IMG/VR virus record: IMGVR_UViG_3300034407_000315 | Coordinates: 1 to 31,979 of that record | Direction: 5' to 3' (one strand) | Source: a virus | DNA: 31,979 bases | Shown: positions 3,956-28,026 of the stretch, piece after piece | How positions within the stretch are numbered: position 1 is the first letter of the stretch | Layout of the letters: every line of letters starts with the position of its first letter | Notes under the pieces: generated by a model | What the model was told of the DNA's origin: nothing | Database searches by the model: none | What the model saw: only the letters and a program-made list of their open reading frames with translations | Made by a program: the position numbers and the translations under genes

Positions 3956-4356
3956 TTAACGATATTGTTAGTTTTTACAAATCATTTAATAGATATAATT
4001 GTTTTAGTAATGAAACAATATTTGAAGAAAATAAAAATTGTTTTAAATACAATCATTACAAAGTATTTCAAGATAAAAAAGGTATTTATGGTTTTGTAAA
4101 TTGGACTTTTCTTGATTTAGAAAACTTAAATTATTTTTTAAAAACAGGCATAGTTCAAAAACATAACTCAGGGAATATATTTGTTCATCTTGATTTTTTA
4201 GCAAAAAAAAATATTAAACACATTTACAAATGGTCTTTAAAAAATATAACTAAATATATTGGTGTTAATAAACAAACACAATGGTTAAGATTAAATAAAG
4301 ATAATGGTGTTAGAAACATTGTAAGAAAAACAGTAAAGGAATCTTGGAATGGGTAG
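3952..4356 (+). CDS. HlyC-like (toxin-activating lysine acyltransferase fold) tail-module protein
   Basis: The ATG at 3952 overlaps the previous stop (ATGA) and is preferred over an in-frame ATG at 3940; the product is 134 residues. Read by eye, the order of motifs follows HlyC: a Tyr-rich start, then YGFVNWTFLDLENLNYFL (HlyC has AYCSWANLSLENEIKYL), then SGN.FVHLDFLA (HlyC has SGDRKWFIDWIAP). The catalytic-type Asp is kept (D81). The region aligned with the HlyC S-x-x-H has SFNR (11-14), so the catalytic His may be replaced. HlyC enzymes move an acyl chain from acyl-ACP to lysines of RTX toxins. Here the substrate would have to be a phage or host protein, or the fold serves structure only. 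In the tail-tip operon, position suggests a role in tip maturation. Confidence 0.5.
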   Translation: MINDIVSFYKSFNRYNCFSNETIFEENKNCFKYNHYKVFQDKKGIYGFVNWTFLDLENLNYFLKTGIVQKHNSGNIFVHLDFLAKKNIKHIYKWSLKNITKYIGVNKQTQWLRLNKDNGVRNIVRKTVKESWNG

Positions 4357-7237
4357 AGTATTTAAAAAAGCAAAGCAAATTTTTAATCCTGTCACTACTA
4401 TTATTTCTAATTTATTTCAAGGTGGTTTTAATCCTTATGTTGCTTTAGGAGTATTTGCTATTGGTTGGTTATTTTCAAGGTCAATGAAACCTGATGTACC
4501 TGACTTTGGTACAAATGATTTTGAAGAAACTGAAAGAGGAATACTACTTAATAAACAATCAAATAATGCTTGTGTTCCTGTTATTTATGGAGAAAGATTA
4601 GTTGGTGGAACAAGAGTGTTTTTAGAAACTTCAGGAACAGATAACACTTATTTATATGTCGCTTTGGTACTTTCAGAGGGAGAGGTAAATTCAATAGAAG
4701 AAATCAAAGTTGATGACAAAGTAGTCACATTTGATGGAGCATTAACACATGGCACAGTAAGAGAAGTAGCAAATAGTGATAGTAATTTTTACAAAGACTC
4801 TACAAGCCATATTCAGATACAAGCTTTTATGGGAACAGATGACCAAGTAGCATCAAGTGTTTTAACACCTTTATCATCATGGGGAAGCAATCATAGATTA
4901 AGAGGTATTTGTTATCTTGCTTTAAGGTTTAAATGGAATCAAGATGTCTTTGGTGGTATTCCACAAGTTCAAGCTAAAGTAAAAGGTAAAAAAGTAATTA
5001 CACTAGCATCTAACTTATCAGAGCAAACTGCATCTTTTTCTACAAATCCAGCTTTTTGTTTATTAGATTATTTAAGAAATGAAAGATATGGAAAAGGAAT
5101 TGCAACAGCAGATTTAGATTTACAAAGTTTTTATGATGCTTCACAAGTTTGCGTCACACAAGTCACACCATATTCAGGTGCTAGTGATATAAATATATTT
5201 GATTGTAATGCTGTTATAGATACATCAAAAAAAGTTTTAGATAATGTAAGAGAAATAGTAAAAGGTATGAGAGGTTATCTTCCTTATGTTCAAGGTAAAT
5301 ATAAATTAGTTATTGAGACAACAGGCACAGCTTCAGTATCACTTACAGAAGATGATATTATAGGTGGATATTCTTTAGCTTCTCCTACAAAAAATTCTAA
5401 ATATAATAGAGTAATTGTTTCATATATAAATCCTGATAGAAATTACCAAGTAGATGAAGTTCAATATCCAGCAATAGATGATAGTGGATATGCTACTGCT
5501 GATAAACACGCAACTATGAAAACAGCAGATGGTGGGTTTTTACTAGAGGGTAGATTTGATTTTAGAACTATTAGCTCAACTTATCAAGCTGAGGAAATGG
5601 CTGAAATTATACTTAGACGAAGCAGAGAATCTTTAGGTCTTAGTATTAACTGTGGATTTAAAGCTTATGAATTGCACATAGGAGATATTGTAAATGTCAC
5701 TTTATCTAGTTTAGGATTTTCGAGTAAAGCTTTTAGAGTGCTTTCAATGACATTTAATGAGGATTATACTATCAATCTTAACTTAGTAGAGTATCAAGCA
5801 TCACATTATACTTGGGCAACAAAATCACAAGTAAGTTCAACACCATCAACAAATTTACCAAATCCATTTACAGTTCAACCACCAGCAAGTGTGACTTTAT
5901 CAGACCAACTTATTGAATATAATGATGGAACTGTAATTGTAGCTTTAGATGTAAGTGTTGGTGCTTCTCCTGATTCATTTATAGATTTTTACCAAGTAGA
6001 GTATAAATTAAGTTCTGATTCTAATTTTATTATATATGCACAAGGCTCAGGTCTTAATCACAGAGTTTTAAATGTAATAGACCAAGAAACTTATGATGTA
6101 AGAGTAAAAGCAGTAAATACTTTAGGAGTGTCATCATCTTATGTTTCAGCACAAAGAAAAATTGTAGGAGCTATTGCACCACCATCAGATGTTCAAGATT
6201 TATCTTGTAATATTACAGGTCAAGATGCACATTTATCTTGGACAGCCATAAATGATTTAGATTTAGCATTTTATCAAATAAGATTTTCTAATAAAACAGA
6301 TGGAACAGGAGAGTGGTTAAACTCTGTAAATTTAGTCACTAAAGTATCAAGACCAGCAACATCGGTCACAGTACCAGCAAGGGCTGGAACTTATCTTATC
6401 AAAGCAGTAGATAAACTTGGAAATTTTAGTTCTAATGCAACAGCTATTGTATCAAATGTGACAAGTGCAGAAAATTTTAATGCTATTACAAGTGTAAGTG
6501 AACATCCTACATTTGGTGGAACTAAGACAAATGTTTCAATATCTGACGATTCACTTATACTAAATTCTAGTGAATTGTTTGACTCTGCTTCAGGTTTATT
6601 TGATGCAAACACCACAAGATTTTTTGACTCAGGTGTAGCAAATGCAGACTTTTTAGCTTCAGGTAATTACGAGTTTGAAAATGTTATAGATATTGGTGCA
6701 AAACATACAGTAAGAGTCACAGCTTCATTAACACAATCTGCTAGAAATCCTGATGATTTATTTGATAATAAAACAGGTAATTTTGATGATGCAAAATCTA
6801 ATTTTGATGGAGATACACCAGCTAATTGTGATGCACATTTAGAGATTGCAACTAGCGATGACAATTCAACATTTACATCTTTTCAAAATTTTGTTATTGG
6901 AAATTATACAGCAAGATATTTAAAATTTAGAATTGTAATGACTTCAACAGATTTAGCTTCAACACCTGTAATTTCAGAAGTCACAATAACAGTTGATATG
7001 CCTGACAGAATATTTAGTGGTAATGATATTGCTTCAGGTACTTCTACAAAAACTGTTTTATTTACAACACCATTTAAGACCACAGCTTATGCAGTTGGAA
7101 TTACAGGAGAAAATATGGCAACAGGAGATTTCTTTACAGTTTCCAACAAAACTGTTAATAGTTTTGATGTTTTATTCAAAAATTCAAGTGGCACAAATGT
7201 TTCAAGAAATTTTGATTTTATTGCAAAAGGATTTTAA
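4349..7237 (+). CDS. Tail tip attachment / host specificity protein (gpJ-like)
   Basis: A 962-residue protein, the largest in the window, starting 8 bp inside the previous gene. A hydrophobic N-terminal segment (about 27-46, FNPYVALGVFAIGWLF) is followed by the conserved tip-hub start ILLNKQSNNACVPVIYGE. The central region (about 230-480) resembles the phage tail protein 3 / gpJ hub. Two fibronectin type III-like domains follow at about 510-608 and 609-707 (APPSDVQDLSCN, AHLSWTAINDLDL). The last 250 residues are beta-rich and Asp/Thr-rich. It probably forms the central tail tip and contributes to receptor binding. Confidence 0.85.
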   Translation: MGRVFKKAKQIFNPVTTIISNLFQGGFNPYVALGVFAIGWLFSRSMKPDVPDFGTNDFEETERGILLNKQSNNACVPVIYGERLVGGTRVFLETSGTDNTYLYVALVLSEGEVNSIEEIKVDDKVVTFDGALTHGTVREVANSDSNFYKDSTSHIQIQAFMGTDDQVASSVLTPLSSWGSNHRLRGICYLALRFKWNQDVFGGIPQVQAKVKGKKVITLASNLSEQTASFSTNPAFCLLDYLRNERYGKGIATADLDLQSFYDASQVCVTQVTPYSGASDINIFDCNAVIDTSKKVLDNVREIVKGMRGYLPYVQGKYKLVIETTGTASVSLTEDDIIGGYSLASPTKNSKYNRVIVSYINPDRNYQVDEVQYPAIDDSGYATADKHATMKTADGGFLLEGRFDFRTISSTYQAEEMAEIILRRSRESLGLSINCGFKAYELHIGDIVNVTLSSLGFSSKAFRVLSMTFNEDYTINLNLVEYQASHYTWATKSQVSSTPSTNLPNPFTVQPPASVTLSDQLIEYNDGTVIVALDVSVGASPDSFIDFYQVEYKLSSDSNFIIYAQGSGLNHRVLNVIDQETYDVRVKAVNTLGVSSSYVSAQRKIVGAIAPPSDVQDLSCNITGQDAHLSWTAINDLDLAFYQIRFSNKTDGTGEWLNSVNLVTKVSRPATSVTVPARAGTYLIKAVDKLGNFSSNATAIVSNVTSAENFNAITSVSEHPTFGGTKTNVSISDDSLILNSSELFDSASGLFDANTTRFFDSGVANADFLASGNYEFENVIDIGAKHTVRVTASLTQSARNPDDLFDNKTGNFDDAKSNFDGDTPANCDAHLEIATSDDNSTFTSFQNFVIGNYTARYLKFRIVMTSTDLASTPVISEVTITVDMPDRIFSGNDIASGTSTKTVLFTTPFKTTAYAVGITGENMATGDFFTVSNKTVNSFDVLFKNSSGTNVSRNFDFIAKGF

Positions 7238-8778: not shown

Positions 8779-10215
8779 ATGCCTTTAATACTTGGAACTA
8801 ACTCCATAAAAGACACAACTTTTACAGTTGCTAATTCGTGCAGATTTGATGATAGTAGCAGTACAAGATTACAAAGAACTATATCTTCTGGTTCATCAAG
8901 TAATACAAAATTTACAATTAGTTTTTGGTTTAAAATGTGCCATAATCATACAAACGATGAATGGTTTTTTGAAAATTATAATAGTGCCTCAGCGAGAACT
9001 TGGATTAGATTTAATTTAGATACAGGAGACCCACGATTAGAAGTTAGTGAATATACAGGAAGTTATATTTTTAGAAAAATAACAAATAGAGTTTTTAGAG
9101 ATATTGGTGCATTTTATCATATTCATGTAAAATTTGATTCTACACAAAGCACAGATACAGAAAGATTAAAAATTTATATAAATGGTGTATTAGAAACAAA
9201 TTTTGCTCAAACTAATCATCCATCGCTTAATGCAACATCAATAGTTGCAAATACAGGAAATCAACATATTGCATATAGTGAAAATATAGGTGGTGCTTAT
9301 TTTTCTGGCTATATGTGTGAATATGTATTTTTAGAGGGAGTGGCAGTAGAACCTAATGGCAACACAGGAGAATTCGATACTGATAGCCCTAATATTTGGA
9401 AACCTGTTGATGTATCTGGTTTAACTTTTGGTACAAATGGATTTTATTTAGACTTTGAAGATAGCTCAGCTTTAGGTAATGATGCAAATGGTTCTAATAA
9501 TTTTACAGTCACTAATCTTACAGCAGAATCTCAATCTCTTGATACTTGCACTAATAATTTTGCGATATTAAATTCTTTACGAAATCAAGTTCATACTTTA
9601 TCAGAGGGTAATTTAGAATATACTGCTTCTACTTCCACTTGGAATGGTGTTTTTTCAACAATAGGTGTTAGTACAGGAAAATGGTATTGTGAAGTAAAAT
9701 ATTCTAGTTTAGATGGTTCAACTTTTAGATTTTACACAGGTATAGCAGATGCAAGAGATTTTAATACTGTTCATAAAGTTGGTCAAAATGAATCAGGCAG
9801 ACTTGGAGATACTATTGGTTTTTTACCTGATAGTGCTTCACCTGATGTACTTAAAAATGGCTCTGATGCTGGTGGCAGTTGGAGTACAATGTCAGTTAAT
9901 GACATTTTAGGAATGGCTATTGATTGTGATAATGGTGCTTTATATTTTTCAAAAAATGGTGTGTGGGAAAATTCAAGCAATCCTGAAAGTGGTGCTTCTA
10001 AAACAGGTGGAATAACTTTTACTGTTGGAGAAACTTATCTTTTTGGTTTTGGTACTTATGGTGGTAGTAGTCCACAACAGCAAGTAAATTTTGGTAGTCC
10101 AATTCATAGTATTTCATCAGGCAACGCAGATGCCAATGGTTATGGTAATTTTGAATATGCAGTACCATCAGGATATTTTAGTCTTTGCACAAAAAACTTA
10201 TCGGAGCATGGCTGA
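8779..10215 (+). CDS. Adhesin with LamG-like and SPRY-like domains
   Basis: A 478-residue protein with a strong TAAGGAG site. Residues about 20-190 form a concanavalin/LamG-like unit (NTKFTISFWFKM, RLKIYINGVLETNF, YFSGYMCEYVFLEGVAVEP). Residues about 270-455 look like a SPRY domain (STGKWYCEVKYSS, RLGDTIGFLPDS, YFSKNGVWENSS, YLFGFGTYGGSS). The end SGYFSLCTKNLSEHG is the point where, in many related marine phage proteins I know of, the polypeptide continues directly into the domain found in the next gene. Here it stops and couples to that gene by TGATG. The likely role is binding surface glycans or proteins. Confidence 0.75.
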   Translation: MPLILGTNSIKDTTFTVANSCRFDDSSSTRLQRTISSGSSSNTKFTISFWFKMCHNHTNDEWFFENYNSASARTWIRFNLDTGDPRLEVSEYTGSYIFRKITNRVFRDIGAFYHIHVKFDSTQSTDTERLKIYINGVLETNFAQTNHPSLNATSIVANTGNQHIAYSENIGGAYFSGYMCEYVFLEGVAVEPNGNTGEFDTDSPNIWKPVDVSGLTFGTNGFYLDFEDSSALGNDANGSNNFTVTNLTAESQSLDTCTNNFAILNSLRNQVHTLSEGNLEYTASTSTWNGVFSTIGVSTGKWYCEVKYSSLDGSTFRFYTGIADARDFNTVHKVGQNESGRLGDTIGFLPDSASPDVLKNGSDAGGSWSTMSVNDILGMAIDCDNGALYFSKNGVWENSSNPESGASKTGGITFTVGETYLFGFGTYGGSSPQQQVNFGSPIHSISSGNADANGYGNFEYAVPSGYFSLCTKNLSEHG

Positions 10216-11618
10216 TGGCTTATTCAAATATAGATAACCCTGAACTTCATTTTCAAACATTATTACATGCAGAAGATGATTTATCATTTACTTTTGATGG
10301 TTCAGAAAATATGAGACCTGATTTAGTATGGAACAAAAACAGAGATGCTAGTGGTTATGAGCCTCATTTTGCAAATAGTGTTAGGGGTAGCACAAAATTA
10401 TTAAGAAGCACCTCAACTATTGCTGAATTTACATCAGCAGATTCTTTTACAAGTTTTGATGCAGATGGCTTTACTATTGGTAATGATAATAATGGATATG
10501 TTTCTTCAGGAGCAGATAAACAAGTTAGCTGGTGCTGGAGTGCTGGTGGCTCAACACCATCTCAAACTTACACAGTAAAAGTAGTTTCTGATAGTGGAAA
10601 CAAATATAGATTTGATGATTTTGGTACAAGTGCTGTCACATTAGATTTACAAGAGGGTGGTACTTACACATTTGACCAATCTGATAGTTCAAATTCAGGG
10701 CATCCATTAAGATTTTCTACAACATCAGATGGCTCTCATGGTGGTGGGAGTGAATACACAACAGGAGTCACAACAGTTGGAACTGCTGGAAGTTCAGGTG
10801 CAAAAACAATTATTACAGTTGGAAGTGGAGTTGCAACACTTTATTATTACTGTACACAACACTCAGGAATGGGTGGACAAGCAAACACAAATTCACTATT
10901 TGGTTCATCAAATTTTTCTGGCACTATTCAATCTATTGTATCGGCTAATATTACTGCTGGATTTAGTATTATAAGTTGGCAAGGAAATGCCACATCAAGT
11001 CAATCGGTTGGACATGGATTAAATGCTGTTCCAAAAGTTATTTTTACAAAAAATACTAGTGATGGTGGACAGCCTTGGAAATGTTATTTTGAAGAAGTTG
11101 GTAATAGCAGTTATTTACAACTAAATGGTAATGATGTACCAGCTACAAGTGGTGTTTGGAGTAATACCACACCGACATCTTCAATTATAAGTATTAGTAA
11201 TGATACAGGAATAAATGGAAGTGGTAATACCATAATAGGTTTTGCTTTTTCAGAAATAAAAAATTACTCAAAATTTTTTCAATATGAGGGAAATTCTAAT
11301 TCTGATGGAAGCTATATACATCTCGGTTTTGCTCCAGCTTTTGTTATGGTGAAGCCAATAGATTTTGCTGATAATTGGAATATTTTTGATAACAAAAGAA
11401 GTAATGCAAATGGAAATAGTACAACTGCACCATATTTTATTTATGCAAATAAAAATTTTGCTGAAACAACAGATACAAAACAATTAGATTTTTTATCAAC
11501 AGGTTTTAAAATAAGAAATAGTGGTAATACAATAAACAGGTCAAGTACATTTGTAGGGATGGCTTTTGCTTCGACACCATTTGTAAATTCTTCAGGTGTA
11601 CCTAATAACGCAATCTAG
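10215..11618 (+). CDS. Second adhesin with inserted cupredoxin-like domain
   Basis: The ATG at 10215 overlaps the previous TGA (TGATG) and has GGAG at 10203-10206; the product is 467 residues. The N-terminal block (MRPDLVWNKNRD, SVRGSTKLL, FDADGFTIG) and the C-terminal block (TAGFSIISWQGN, VGHGLNAVPKVI, HLGFAPAFVMVK, FVGMAFASTPFVNSSGVPNN) belong to a common marine phage fibre family. Between them, residues 117-221 insert a domain like a cupredoxin: YTFDQSD, then HPLRF, then LYYYCTQHSGMGG. Candidate copper ligands are H163, C213, H216 and M219. The outer parts probably bind the host surface. Whether copper is bound is unknown. Confidence 0.75.
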   Translation: MAYSNIDNPELHFQTLLHAEDDLSFTFDGSENMRPDLVWNKNRDASGYEPHFANSVRGSTKLLRSTSTIAEFTSADSFTSFDADGFTIGNDNNGYVSSGADKQVSWCWSAGGSTPSQTYTVKVVSDSGNKYRFDDFGTSAVTLDLQEGGTYTFDQSDSSNSGHPLRFSTTSDGSHGGGSEYTTGVTTVGTAGSSGAKTIITVGSGVATLYYYCTQHSGMGGQANTNSLFGSSNFSGTIQSIVSANITAGFSIISWQGNATSSQSVGHGLNAVPKVIFTKNTSDGGQPWKCYFEEVGNSSYLQLNGNDVPATSGVWSNTTPTSSIISISNDTGINGSGNTIIGFAFSEIKNYSKFFQYEGNSNSDGSYIHLGFAPAFVMVKPIDFADNWNIFDNKRSNANGNSTTAPYFIYANKNFAETTDTKQLDFLSTGFKIRNSGNTINRSSTFVGMAFASTPFVNSSGVPNNAI

Positions 11619-11627
11619 GAGTTAATC

Positions 11628-12110
11628 ATGCAATTATCAAAAAATTTTACATTAGAGGAGATGGAAAAGTCTCAAACAGCTACAAGAAAAGGTATTAAAA
11701 ATAAAGCTGGTAGTGGAGAGATTAAAAATTTAGGCGACCTTTGTTATGAAGTATTAGAGCCTGTAAGAGCAAAGTTTGACAGACCTGTTACAATTACATC
11801 AGGATATAGAAGTCCTGAATTATCAGAAGCAATAGGTAGCAAATCCACTTCACAACATTGTTCAGGGGAAGCTTGTGATTTTGAGATAGCTGGAGTTTCA
11901 AATTTACAAGTAGCTTTATGGATTCAAAATAATGTAAATTTTGACCAATTAATTTTAGAGTTTTGGAAAGAGGGAGAGCCTAATAGTGGTTGGATTCATT
12001 GTTCTTACAAAGAGGGGTCTAATAGAAAACAAGTTTTGACATATTCAGGTGGAGAATATAAAAATGGATTACCTGATGCCAAGTGGTCAGATGGTAAATT
12101 TGCTAACTAA
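11628..12110 (+). CDS. Endolysin, M15-type D-Ala-D-Ala peptidase
   Basis: A 160-residue protein with a GGAG site. It shows the peptidase M15A zinc site: SGYRSPELSEAIG (58-70), then S.HCSGEACDFE with H77 and D84, and GWIHCSY with H124. These supply the His/Asp/His zinc ligands of the family. It would cut peptide cross-links in the host cell wall at lysis. No signal peptide is seen, so it needs a holin, and candidates follow downstream. Confidence 0.88.
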   Translation: MQLSKNFTLEEMEKSQTATRKGIKNKAGSGEIKNLGDLCYEVLEPVRAKFDRPVTITSGYRSPELSEAIGSKSTSQHCSGEACDFEIAGVSNLQVALWIQNNVNFDQLILEFWKEGEPNSGWIHCSYKEGSNRKQVLTYSGGEYKNGLPDAKWSDGKFAN

Positions 12111-26031: not shown

Positions 26032-28026
26032 ATGTCAGATATAGTAAAAGACTTAACAGAATACAGAATCAGAGGTATTGAAAAAGCCGAAGTTGAATTT
26101 TACGAATCACTTACAAAAACATTAGATAAAATAGAAGATGAGATAGTAGCATTAGCTGATGTTAATTTACCAAGACAGGCTGGTAAGCTTATTGAATTAC
26201 AAAGTGCAGTAGCCATAAGACCAAAGATAAAAGCAATACTTGATAAAGAATATTTACCATTTGCAGATAGAGTTGTTAGAAAAGGTTTTGGAGAACAAGC
26301 TAAGAGAGTTGAAAGACAATTTAAAACAATAGGTATTATACCACCTGAATTTCAAGAACTTACTAAGGGAGATTTAGCTTTAGTTAAAAATTTAAAACAA
26401 CAATATTACACACAGTTTAAAGATGTATCAAACAATTTTACAAGAATATTATCAGATAAAGTTTATCAAAACACATTAGTTGGAACTGAATTTACAGTAT
26501 TAGAAAAAGAATTAAGAGAATCTATCAATGGTATTTATGCAAGTTCAAGAGACCCAGCAGTAAATAGATTAGTTAGTTATGTTAAAAGAAACAGAGATAA
26601 TCCAAGATTAAAAGGTAGAGTAGATTCAGCTATCAAACAATTACAAAGTAAATACGCAAGAACTAGAACAGGAGAGAACATGAAAAGGTATGCTGGTCAA
26701 ATACTTAATGATTCTTTGCGAGACTTTGATGCTACATTAAACTTTAATAAATCAAAAGATGCTGGACTTACATTTGTAAAATACTATGGAGATGTAATAC
26801 CTACAACAAGAGATTTATGTAGAAGAATGGTAGGTGGACAGCTTAACAAAAGAAAGAATGGTTTATTTACAATAGCAGAGATACAAGACATTTGGGCTGG
26901 TAGAAGTTGGTCAGGTAAAAAGGGTGGTAATCCAATGGTAGTGAGAGGTGGATATAATTGCAGACACCAATTCAGTTATGTAAATCCTGATTGGTACGAA
27001 GAAGATGGAGAGGAATCATCATTACTTACAGGTGTTGATAAACCAACTGCTGTACCAAATCCAACCAAATCAATATTTGGAGAAACAAGCAAAGACGAAA
27101 AAGTATTACTAGAAAAAGCTTTTGGTACTGAGCCATCTGCATTTTCAAAAGCTATTGCATTTATACCAGCACTTAAAACATTAAAGAAATCAGGCAGAGG
27201 TTTTTATAGAAGAAGTGATGATACATTAAACATTGGGTCTAGTAGAATTGGAGAAGCAGAAGAAATGAAAGTATTTATTCACGAATACACACATAGAATT
27301 GATAGGATTATTGGTGCAAAATTATCTGATGGTGCTTTGTTAAATAAATTTGCAAAAGGTGTAGATGAGAAAATAACAAAAAATTCAAGATTTTTTGCAA
27401 GTATATCACATCTAAAAGCACAGAGTTTAGTTAATGATAATGTTGAGTTAGTAAAAAATTTAAGAAAAAGAAAATTAGCATTGATGAAAGACCATACAGA
27501 AGTTGTAGCAAAACAACCACCTATTCTAACTGCAAGTCAAACAGAAATAGATAATTATTATAAAAATCTTAATAGTAAGTTAAAAGTAATATTGACAGAT
27601 GATGAAATAAGTACTTATTTAAAATCAAATCAAAGGTCATTTGGACAAAGACAAATTTATTATTTTAAACTTAAATTAAAACACAAAGTATTAGACCCAA
27701 GACATAAAGGGGGTTTTGATTTACAATTTTCAGGAGATTTTAACGATTATCTAGGTGCAATTACAAAAGAAACTGTGGGTGGTGGACATGGTAAAGCTTA
27801 TTATGATAAATATAGCACTATATTAGGTGTAAGAGATGGAATAAAAAAAAATTATACAGAGGGTCAAACATTAGAAGCATGGGCTAATCACTCTGCTATG
27901 ACTTTAAGCCCAAAAAGGATAGATAATAAAGATATAAAAGTAATTGAAAGGAAACTTATGAATTACTTTGCACCAAACACAACAAAAGGATTTGACGACT
28001 TAGTAAATAACTTAAATGATTTATAG
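26032..28026 (+). CDS. MuF-type head morphogenesis protein fused to a zincin-like domain
   Basis: A 664-residue protein 3 bp after the portal. Residues about 130-320 are the Mu F / SPP1 gp7 head protein domain: YYGDVIPTTRDLCRRMVGGQ (C263) and GGYNCRHQF (C310). Residues about 380-660 are a second domain with an HExxH motif, VFIHEYTHRIDRIIG (H417, E418, H421), then DFNDYLGAITKETVGGGHGK (H586) and LEAWANHSAM (E615 as possible third zinc ligand). MuF fusions with enzymatic C-termini are known, and HExxH examples occur in phage minor head proteins. It could trim head proteins or be injected with the DNA. Confidence 0.85.
   Translation: MSDIVKDLTEYRIRGIEKAEVEFYESLTKTLDKIEDEIVALADVNLPRQAGKLIELQSAVAIRPKIKAILDKEYLPFADRVVRKGFGEQAKRVERQFKTIGIIPPEFQELTKGDLALVKNLKQQYYTQFKDVSNNFTRILSDKVYQNTLVGTEFTVLEKELRESINGIYASSRDPAVNRLVSYVKRNRDNPRLKGRVDSAIKQLQSKYARTRTGENMKRYAGQILNDSLRDFDATLNFNKSKDAGLTFVKYYGDVIPTTRDLCRRMVGGQLNKRKNGLFTIAEIQDIWAGRSWSGKKGGNPMVVRGGYNCRHQFSYVNPDWYEEDGEESSLLTGVDKPTAVPNPTKSIFGETSKDEKVLLEKAFGTEPSAFSKAIAFIPALKTLKKSGRGFYRRSDDTLNIGSSRIGEAEEMKVFIHEYTHRIDRIIGAKLSDGALLNKFAKGVDEKITKNSRFFASISHLKAQSLVNDNVELVKNLRKRKLALMKDHTEVVAKQPPILTASQTEIDNYYKNLNSKLKVILTDDEISTYLKSNQRSFGQRQIYYFKLKLKHKVLDPRHKGGFDLQFSGDFNDYLGAITKETVGGGHGKAYYDKYSTILGVRDGIKKNYTEGQTLEAWANHSAMTLSPKRIDNKDIKVIERKLMNYFAPNTTKGFDDLVNNLNDL

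Follow-up and report, generated by a model that had tools for sequence, protein, structure and literature searches.

The closest described counterparts of the phage domain reported here are type 1 copper proteins. Amicyanin and plastocyanin (PF00127, TIGR02657) share its cupredoxin fold and have His, Cys, His, and Met at equivalent places, and the ligand loop of amicyanin, C-x2-H-x2-M, is the same. However, both are free periplasmic or lumenal electron carriers, while the phage domain is built into fibre and baseplate proteins and has a His followed by Pro and a different middle loop. Its top structural matches, the N-terminal domain of 2dv6 and rusticyanin, are likewise electron-transfer proteins or domains, at only 14–18% identity.

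Metal on phage fibres has a described precedent: receptor-binding fibres of marine phages hold iron via HxH motifs, the basis of the “Ferrojan horse” idea (PMC11705849), a paper that cites T4 gp37 for such iron-holding fibre motifs. The likeness is that metal is held on receptor-binding fibres. The iron sites are paired HxH motifs in octahedral geometry, while the phage site is of the copper type, complete, and contained in a separate domain; the HxH motifs show that fibres can hold metal but are not related to the cupredoxin-like domain.

Cupredoxins themselves are well known, but as far as we could check, phage fibres and baseplates have not been described as bearing a conserved type 1-like site: the literature searched for cupredoxins, copper, or metal in phage tails or virions, which mostly did not cover subscription journals, yielded no description of the domain. 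Copper, a trace metal, is both scarce in the ocean and toxic, and most of it is complexed by organic ligands whose identity is poorly known. Copper sites on the tails of phages that infect SAR11, cyanobacteria, and Methylophilales, if present, would make virus particles a pool of copper ligands and could render infection copper-dependent. The domain occurs in cultured phages, which makes the copper question immediately testable. A functional name would also be gained for a very widespread module that has had none and that is, in some copies, currently annotated as an immunoglobulin domain. Here, we describe one such module, an insert in a tail fibre that is probably a cupredoxin whose type 1-like copper site, of the amicyanin kind, is functional; this metal binding is inferred.

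The fibre gene and its insert

The window, i.e., the whole stretch of DNA analyzed (31,979 nucleotides; positions 1 to 31,979 of IMG/VR virus record IMGVR_UViG_3300034407_000315), derives from a tailed phage. Based on PHROG and Pfam matches, it encodes tape-measure-like and distal tail proteins, a central tail fibre J-like protein in the tail module (4349–7237; PHROG 31), putative fibre proteins, an endolysin (11628–12110; PHROG 894), an exonuclease, terminase, portal, scaffold, and major head protein. The tail and lysis genes, and all features within them given below, lie on the plus strand. The 467-aa gene of interest (10215–11618), a tail-fibre/adhesin gene with a PHROG match to tail fibre/virion structural protein, sits within the tail module, and its ATG start at 10215 is part of a TGATG overlap with the stop of the preceding gene. 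The putative fibre/adhesin neighbor (8779–10215; Pfam Laminin_G_3, PHROG 27411) has a LamG-like domain and lacks the cupredoxin-like domain, which occurs in a single copy in the whole record. Elsewhere in the window, a 664-aa gene (26032–28026) with the portal on one side and the scaffold on the other has no PHROG or Pfam matches.

By profile score, the 467-aa protein is assigned to DUF7483 (PF24299), with 248.8 bits in two stretches against a Pfam cut-off of 27 bits. The N-terminal part (10245–10568) matches profile positions 4–112, and the C-terminal part (10902–11579) matches positions 108–330. Because DUF7483 matches flank them on both sides, the approximately 110 residues in between constitute an insert, placed at profile position ~108–112. 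Relatives without an insert—Pelagibacter phage HTVC011P, the second repeat of S-B68, L087, L009, and L032—join the two DUF7483 halves directly at the same place, with a W-x-A-G stretch on one side of the junction and S-x-V-S on the other. While the window protein belongs to the same family as the HTVC011P fibre, 67 of 68 nearest relatives of HTVC011P have no insert at the junction. A preliminary description, made from the sequence alone, had claimed that about 105 residues interrupt a marine phage fibre protein at 10563–10877. The interruption is borne out by the Pfam matches, but the end was placed slightly too early: the last strand reaches ~10892 in the AlphaFold2 (AF2) model, and the cupredoxin-like domain covers residues 117–226 (10563–10892).

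Four residues in this domain are predicted copper ligands: H163 (10701–10703), the N-terminal His, which precedes a Pro; C213 (10851–10853), the sole Cys of the domain, at the end of the penultimate strand; H216 (10860–10862), the second His, in a C-x2-H arrangement; and M219 (10869–10871), the axial Met, in H-x2-M. The assignment of H163 draws on its invariance in alignments of 45 relatives and of 17 members and on hhalign alignments to amicyanin, pseudoazurin, and rusticyanin, in which it falls on the ligand His. That of C213 draws on conservation, the AF2 model, and hhalign, and those of H216 and M219 on conservation, profile alignment, and hhalign. The numbering first proposed for these four residues is exact when the ATG at 10215 is taken as the start.

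Predicted fold and relation to copper proteins

Residues 117–226 are confidently predicted to form a Greek-key beta-sandwich of the cupredoxin fold. The AF2 model of the domain, built on an alignment of the 45 relatives, has a pLDDT of 90.3 and a pTM of 0.84, and the model of the whole fibre protein has a pLDDT of 88.7 and a pTM of 0.91. In the domain model, H47 (equivalent to H163) stands immediately ahead of a strand, C97 (C213) ends the penultimate strand, and H100 and M103 (H216 and M219) are in the loop ahead of the last strand; this modeled layout is that of type 1 copper proteins. In Foldseek searches against the PDB, ranks 1–33 are all copper proteins (the HdNIR N-terminal domain, rusticyanin, and multicopper oxidases), with amicyanin at rank 40, although E-values are modest (best 1.9e-3). 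VIA-align of the domain model gives a Z of 9.8 with 2dv6_A 27–135 (99 residues, 2.6 Å), the N-terminal type 1 copper domain of Hyphomicrobium denitrificans nitrite reductase. Residues 112–228 of the whole-protein model recover the same copper domains, with a Z of 8.9 for rusticyanin 2cal (107 residues, 3.0 Å). On its own, a Z of 8 to 10 is not high; what counts is that all top matches, the sequence, and the ligands agree. The preliminary description had proposed comparing a predicted structure with plastocyanin, and had named a fold unlike cupredoxin as a refutation. Instead, AF2 gives the cupredoxin fold for both the domain and the whole protein, and type 1 copper domains are its closest matches among solved structures.

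Homology to known cupredoxins is supported at the profile level and is not evident from single sequences. A phmmer search of the PDB with the whole fibre protein returned no match, single members score weakly against Pfam cupredoxin families (borderline or near noise), and matches of the close relatives to Pfam and NCBIfam are merely borderline. A profile of the close relatives (the 45-relative alignment) drew antibody chains and pseudoazurin from the PDB, none significant. This was resolved with a more divergent profile of 17 members of the family, which matches algal plastocyanin (E 1.1e-4) and amicyanin (5e-4) in the PDB, as well as Cu nitrite reductase, rusticyanin, and others. In hhalign, the same profile scores 32–39 against amicyanin, plastocyanin, and rusticyanin, while 60 shuffles of each reach no more than 17; for amicyanin alone, the score is 33.8 against a shuffle maximum of 13.8 (60 shuffles). 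E-values for these copper-protein references range from 1e-5 to 3e-6. The amicyanin reference sequence agrees with the PDB alignment. Against azurin, hhalign gave no meaningful alignment, and the amicyanin model TIGR02657 has no match in the window domain, with other family members at E 6e-4 or weaker. Repeated weak matches were seen to Pfam PF25489 (At5g54830-like domain), named after a plant protein, which hints that the cupredoxin-like family may extend into eukaryotes.

The hhalign alignment pairs H163, C213, H216, and M219 with H53, C92, H95, and M98 of amicyanin, its copper ligands. HMMER alone puts H163 two residues off the ligand His of plastocyanin and amicyanin, and the assignment of this residue thus rests on hhalign, which puts it on the ligand, and on conservation. 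The ligand loop of the window domain, C-x2-H-x2-M, is the short loop of the amicyanin type. His, Cys, His, and an axial Met occupy the places of type 1 copper ligands, as the initially suggested spacing implied, though we have no distance data for their side chains.

Conservation of the ligands and what the site may bind

IMG/VR contains at least 599 related stretches, and the ligands are among the most conserved columns, which takes the domain far beyond chance. All four ligands are invariant in the 45 relatives. Since our initial search patterns included ligand residues, we used a second query that stopped ahead of the first ligand; among the sequences it retrieved, all four were kept in 66/66 complete copies, with one further copy cut by a contig end. 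Of 177 complete copies drawn from isolates, metagenomic phages, and bacterial contigs, 175 retain all four, as do 30 of 32 clusters at 70% identity. The 80 loci fetched with cyanophage gp9 behave similarly (116/117 complete copies, two further copies being cut by sequence ends), and the single exception lacks only the axial Met. An alignment of 17 divergent sequences has just six invariant columns, four of which are the ligands; the family diverges to 25–35% identity, yet the ligands remain among its best-kept columns. One copy (L071) retains them despite a loop that is two residues longer, C-x4-H-x2-M. On this comparative evidence, the four ligands are under strong selection; free variation in homologues, which the preliminary description had named as a refutation, is not seen.

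Losses do occur, mostly concerted and in degenerate tandem copies that adjoin an intact one. In the structural protein downstream of gp9 in P-RSM4 and syn9 (L205 and L206), one copy is intact and the next, the second, has lost all four ligands, a single event in related phages. In a giant protein of the SAR86 relative L402, the first copy has its His, Cys, and second His replaced, and the second copy is intact. In L402 and another SAR86 relative, L401, the domain is contained in giant proteins with open frames of ~3500 residues.

These degenerate copies bear on the first alternative, namely that the insert is an empty beta sandwich, which keeps the cupredoxin fold without metal purely as a module for protein or glycan contact. 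The ligand-less copies next to intact ones in P-RSM4, syn9, and L402 still have open frames, which indicates that the fold can serve without the site. However, an empty sandwich does not account for four chemically special residues among the best-kept columns at 25–35% identity, mostly lost together, and where just one ligand is missing, in a single copy, it is the axial Met, which is variable in known type 1 sites too. We consider this alternative improbable. The preliminary description had left it open; for the window copy it is disfavored, and it stands only for a few tandem copies elsewhere that have lost all or nearly all ligands.

A second alternative is that the site binds zinc or iron, or acts as a thiol redox switch, in a structural capacity only. 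In purified cupredoxins, zinc can occupy a Cys-His2-Met site. Phage fibres are able to hold iron through HxH motifs (PMC11705849). On the other hand, both the set of ligands and their spacing in the loop match type 1 copper proteins, and the domain offers no second Cys with which a switch could form a disulfide, leaving this reading rather improbable too, and slightly harder to defend than an empty sandwich. Finally, there is very little to sustain the already disfavored reading of the insert as one of the immunoglobulin-like domains common in phage structural proteins: its YYC motif resembles that of the Ig V-set and produces weak profile matches to antibody chains, and homologues in P-HM1 and MED4-213 are annotated as PF07686/immunoglobulin domain, but with a single Cys the core-disulfide partner of the V-set (PF07686) is absent, Foldseek puts cupredoxins above antibody chains (the first at rank 34, TM 0.39), the VIA-align list includes no antibody chain, and an Ig fold has no use for the conserved His and Met. 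The PF07686/immunoglobulin annotation of these two homologues (PHM1_104 of P-HM1, our L173, and L171 of MED4-213) probably arose through YYC; they are more likely cupredoxin-like.

We return, then, to a type 1-like copper site. The fold, ligand set, conservation, spread, and insertion site are computational results; that the domain binds copper is an inference we hold to be likely, in the absence of metal or side-chain distance data.

Distribution of the domain and a possible role in host contact

Besides DUF7483 fibres, the domain is found in a T7-type pelagiphage fibre (L184), at the C-terminus of gp9 in T4-like cyanophages (P-RSM4, syn9, and P-TIM40), in a putative proximal tail fibre of P-SSM2, in a portal-adjacent virion protein of S-TIM5, and in fibre proteins of Methylophilales and Pelagibacter phages. 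The cyanophage gp9 baseplate wedge/tail-fibre connector has the same domain with ligands kept, but it is a T4_gp9_10_N protein of contractile phages, in which the domain is terminal and not inserted. Similar inserts in other marine phage structural proteins had been mentioned in the preliminary description, and the occurrences in gp9 and in P-SSM2, pelagiphage, and Methylophilales phage fibres bear this out. Gene context and annotation place the domain on adhesion proteins. Cultured phages that carry it include P-SSM2, syn9, S-TIM5, P-HM1, S-B68, Pelagibacter phage Baldr, and Methylophilales phage Melnitz. By fold, 66 matches in BFVD reach an E-value of 1e-3 or better. Also in BFVD, pithovirus and marseillevirus “beta-sandwich proteins” match at E ~1e-5, by fold only.

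The domain is also present in cellular genomes. In SAR86, it occurs in lipobox-bearing exported lipoproteins of ~180 residues and in longer lipoproteins. The exported lipoproteins have a single copy with all four ligands, as in the phage fibre; however, they are encoded by a cellular, non-phage gene with conserved cellular neighbors, the ~180-residue lipoprotein genes being flanked by cellular metabolic genes and a gene for a 966-aa secreted protein. No relative of the SAR86 lipoprotein was found in plasmids. A SAR11 contig (L184) was considered as a host gene and rejected, as it is phage-like, with a T7-type fibre N-terminus; the remaining SAR11 matches, not read individually, have similar frame lengths. 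Since both SAR86 exported lipoproteins and phage fibres and baseplates carry the domain, it is a module common to bacterial surface proteins and phage adhesion parts, and the two sets of copies are homologous.

Altogether, this suggests that phages with the domain carry bound copper on the parts that touch the host. In the mechanism we propose, the cupredoxin domain, set as a domain of its own in a loop of the DUF7483 fibre, would fold in the virion and acquire copper once the cell has lysed or in the external medium; uptake probably follows release, as little copper is free in the cytoplasm. The copper-loaded domain may then serve in contact with the host envelope as a metal-stabilized adhesion module; alternatively, it may dock on a partner of bacterial cupredoxin lipoproteins. 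A role in host contact, whether through the metal or the domain surface, is a guess that we would put at somewhat below even chances. A copper-dependent or redox-sensitive trigger is possible, with no direct evidence. The more ambitious reading, that marine tailed phages have a type 1 site on their tails dedicated to copper and that this metal helps them to recognize or enter the host, is doubtful at present, its redox or docking role being conjectural. Under this reading, recognition or entry would involve either docking on a partner in the envelope that depends on copper or a trigger sensitive to redox state, through the same module as in bacterial surface cupredoxin lipoproteins, and would parallel, with copper, the “Trojan horse” idea put forward for iron.

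At all three of the SAR86 loci that we read (L185, L194, and L198), the gene next after that for the small cupredoxin-like lipoprotein encodes a secreted protein of ~966–976 aa and unknown family. This secreted protein is a candidate partner of the SAR86 cupredoxin-like lipoprotein.
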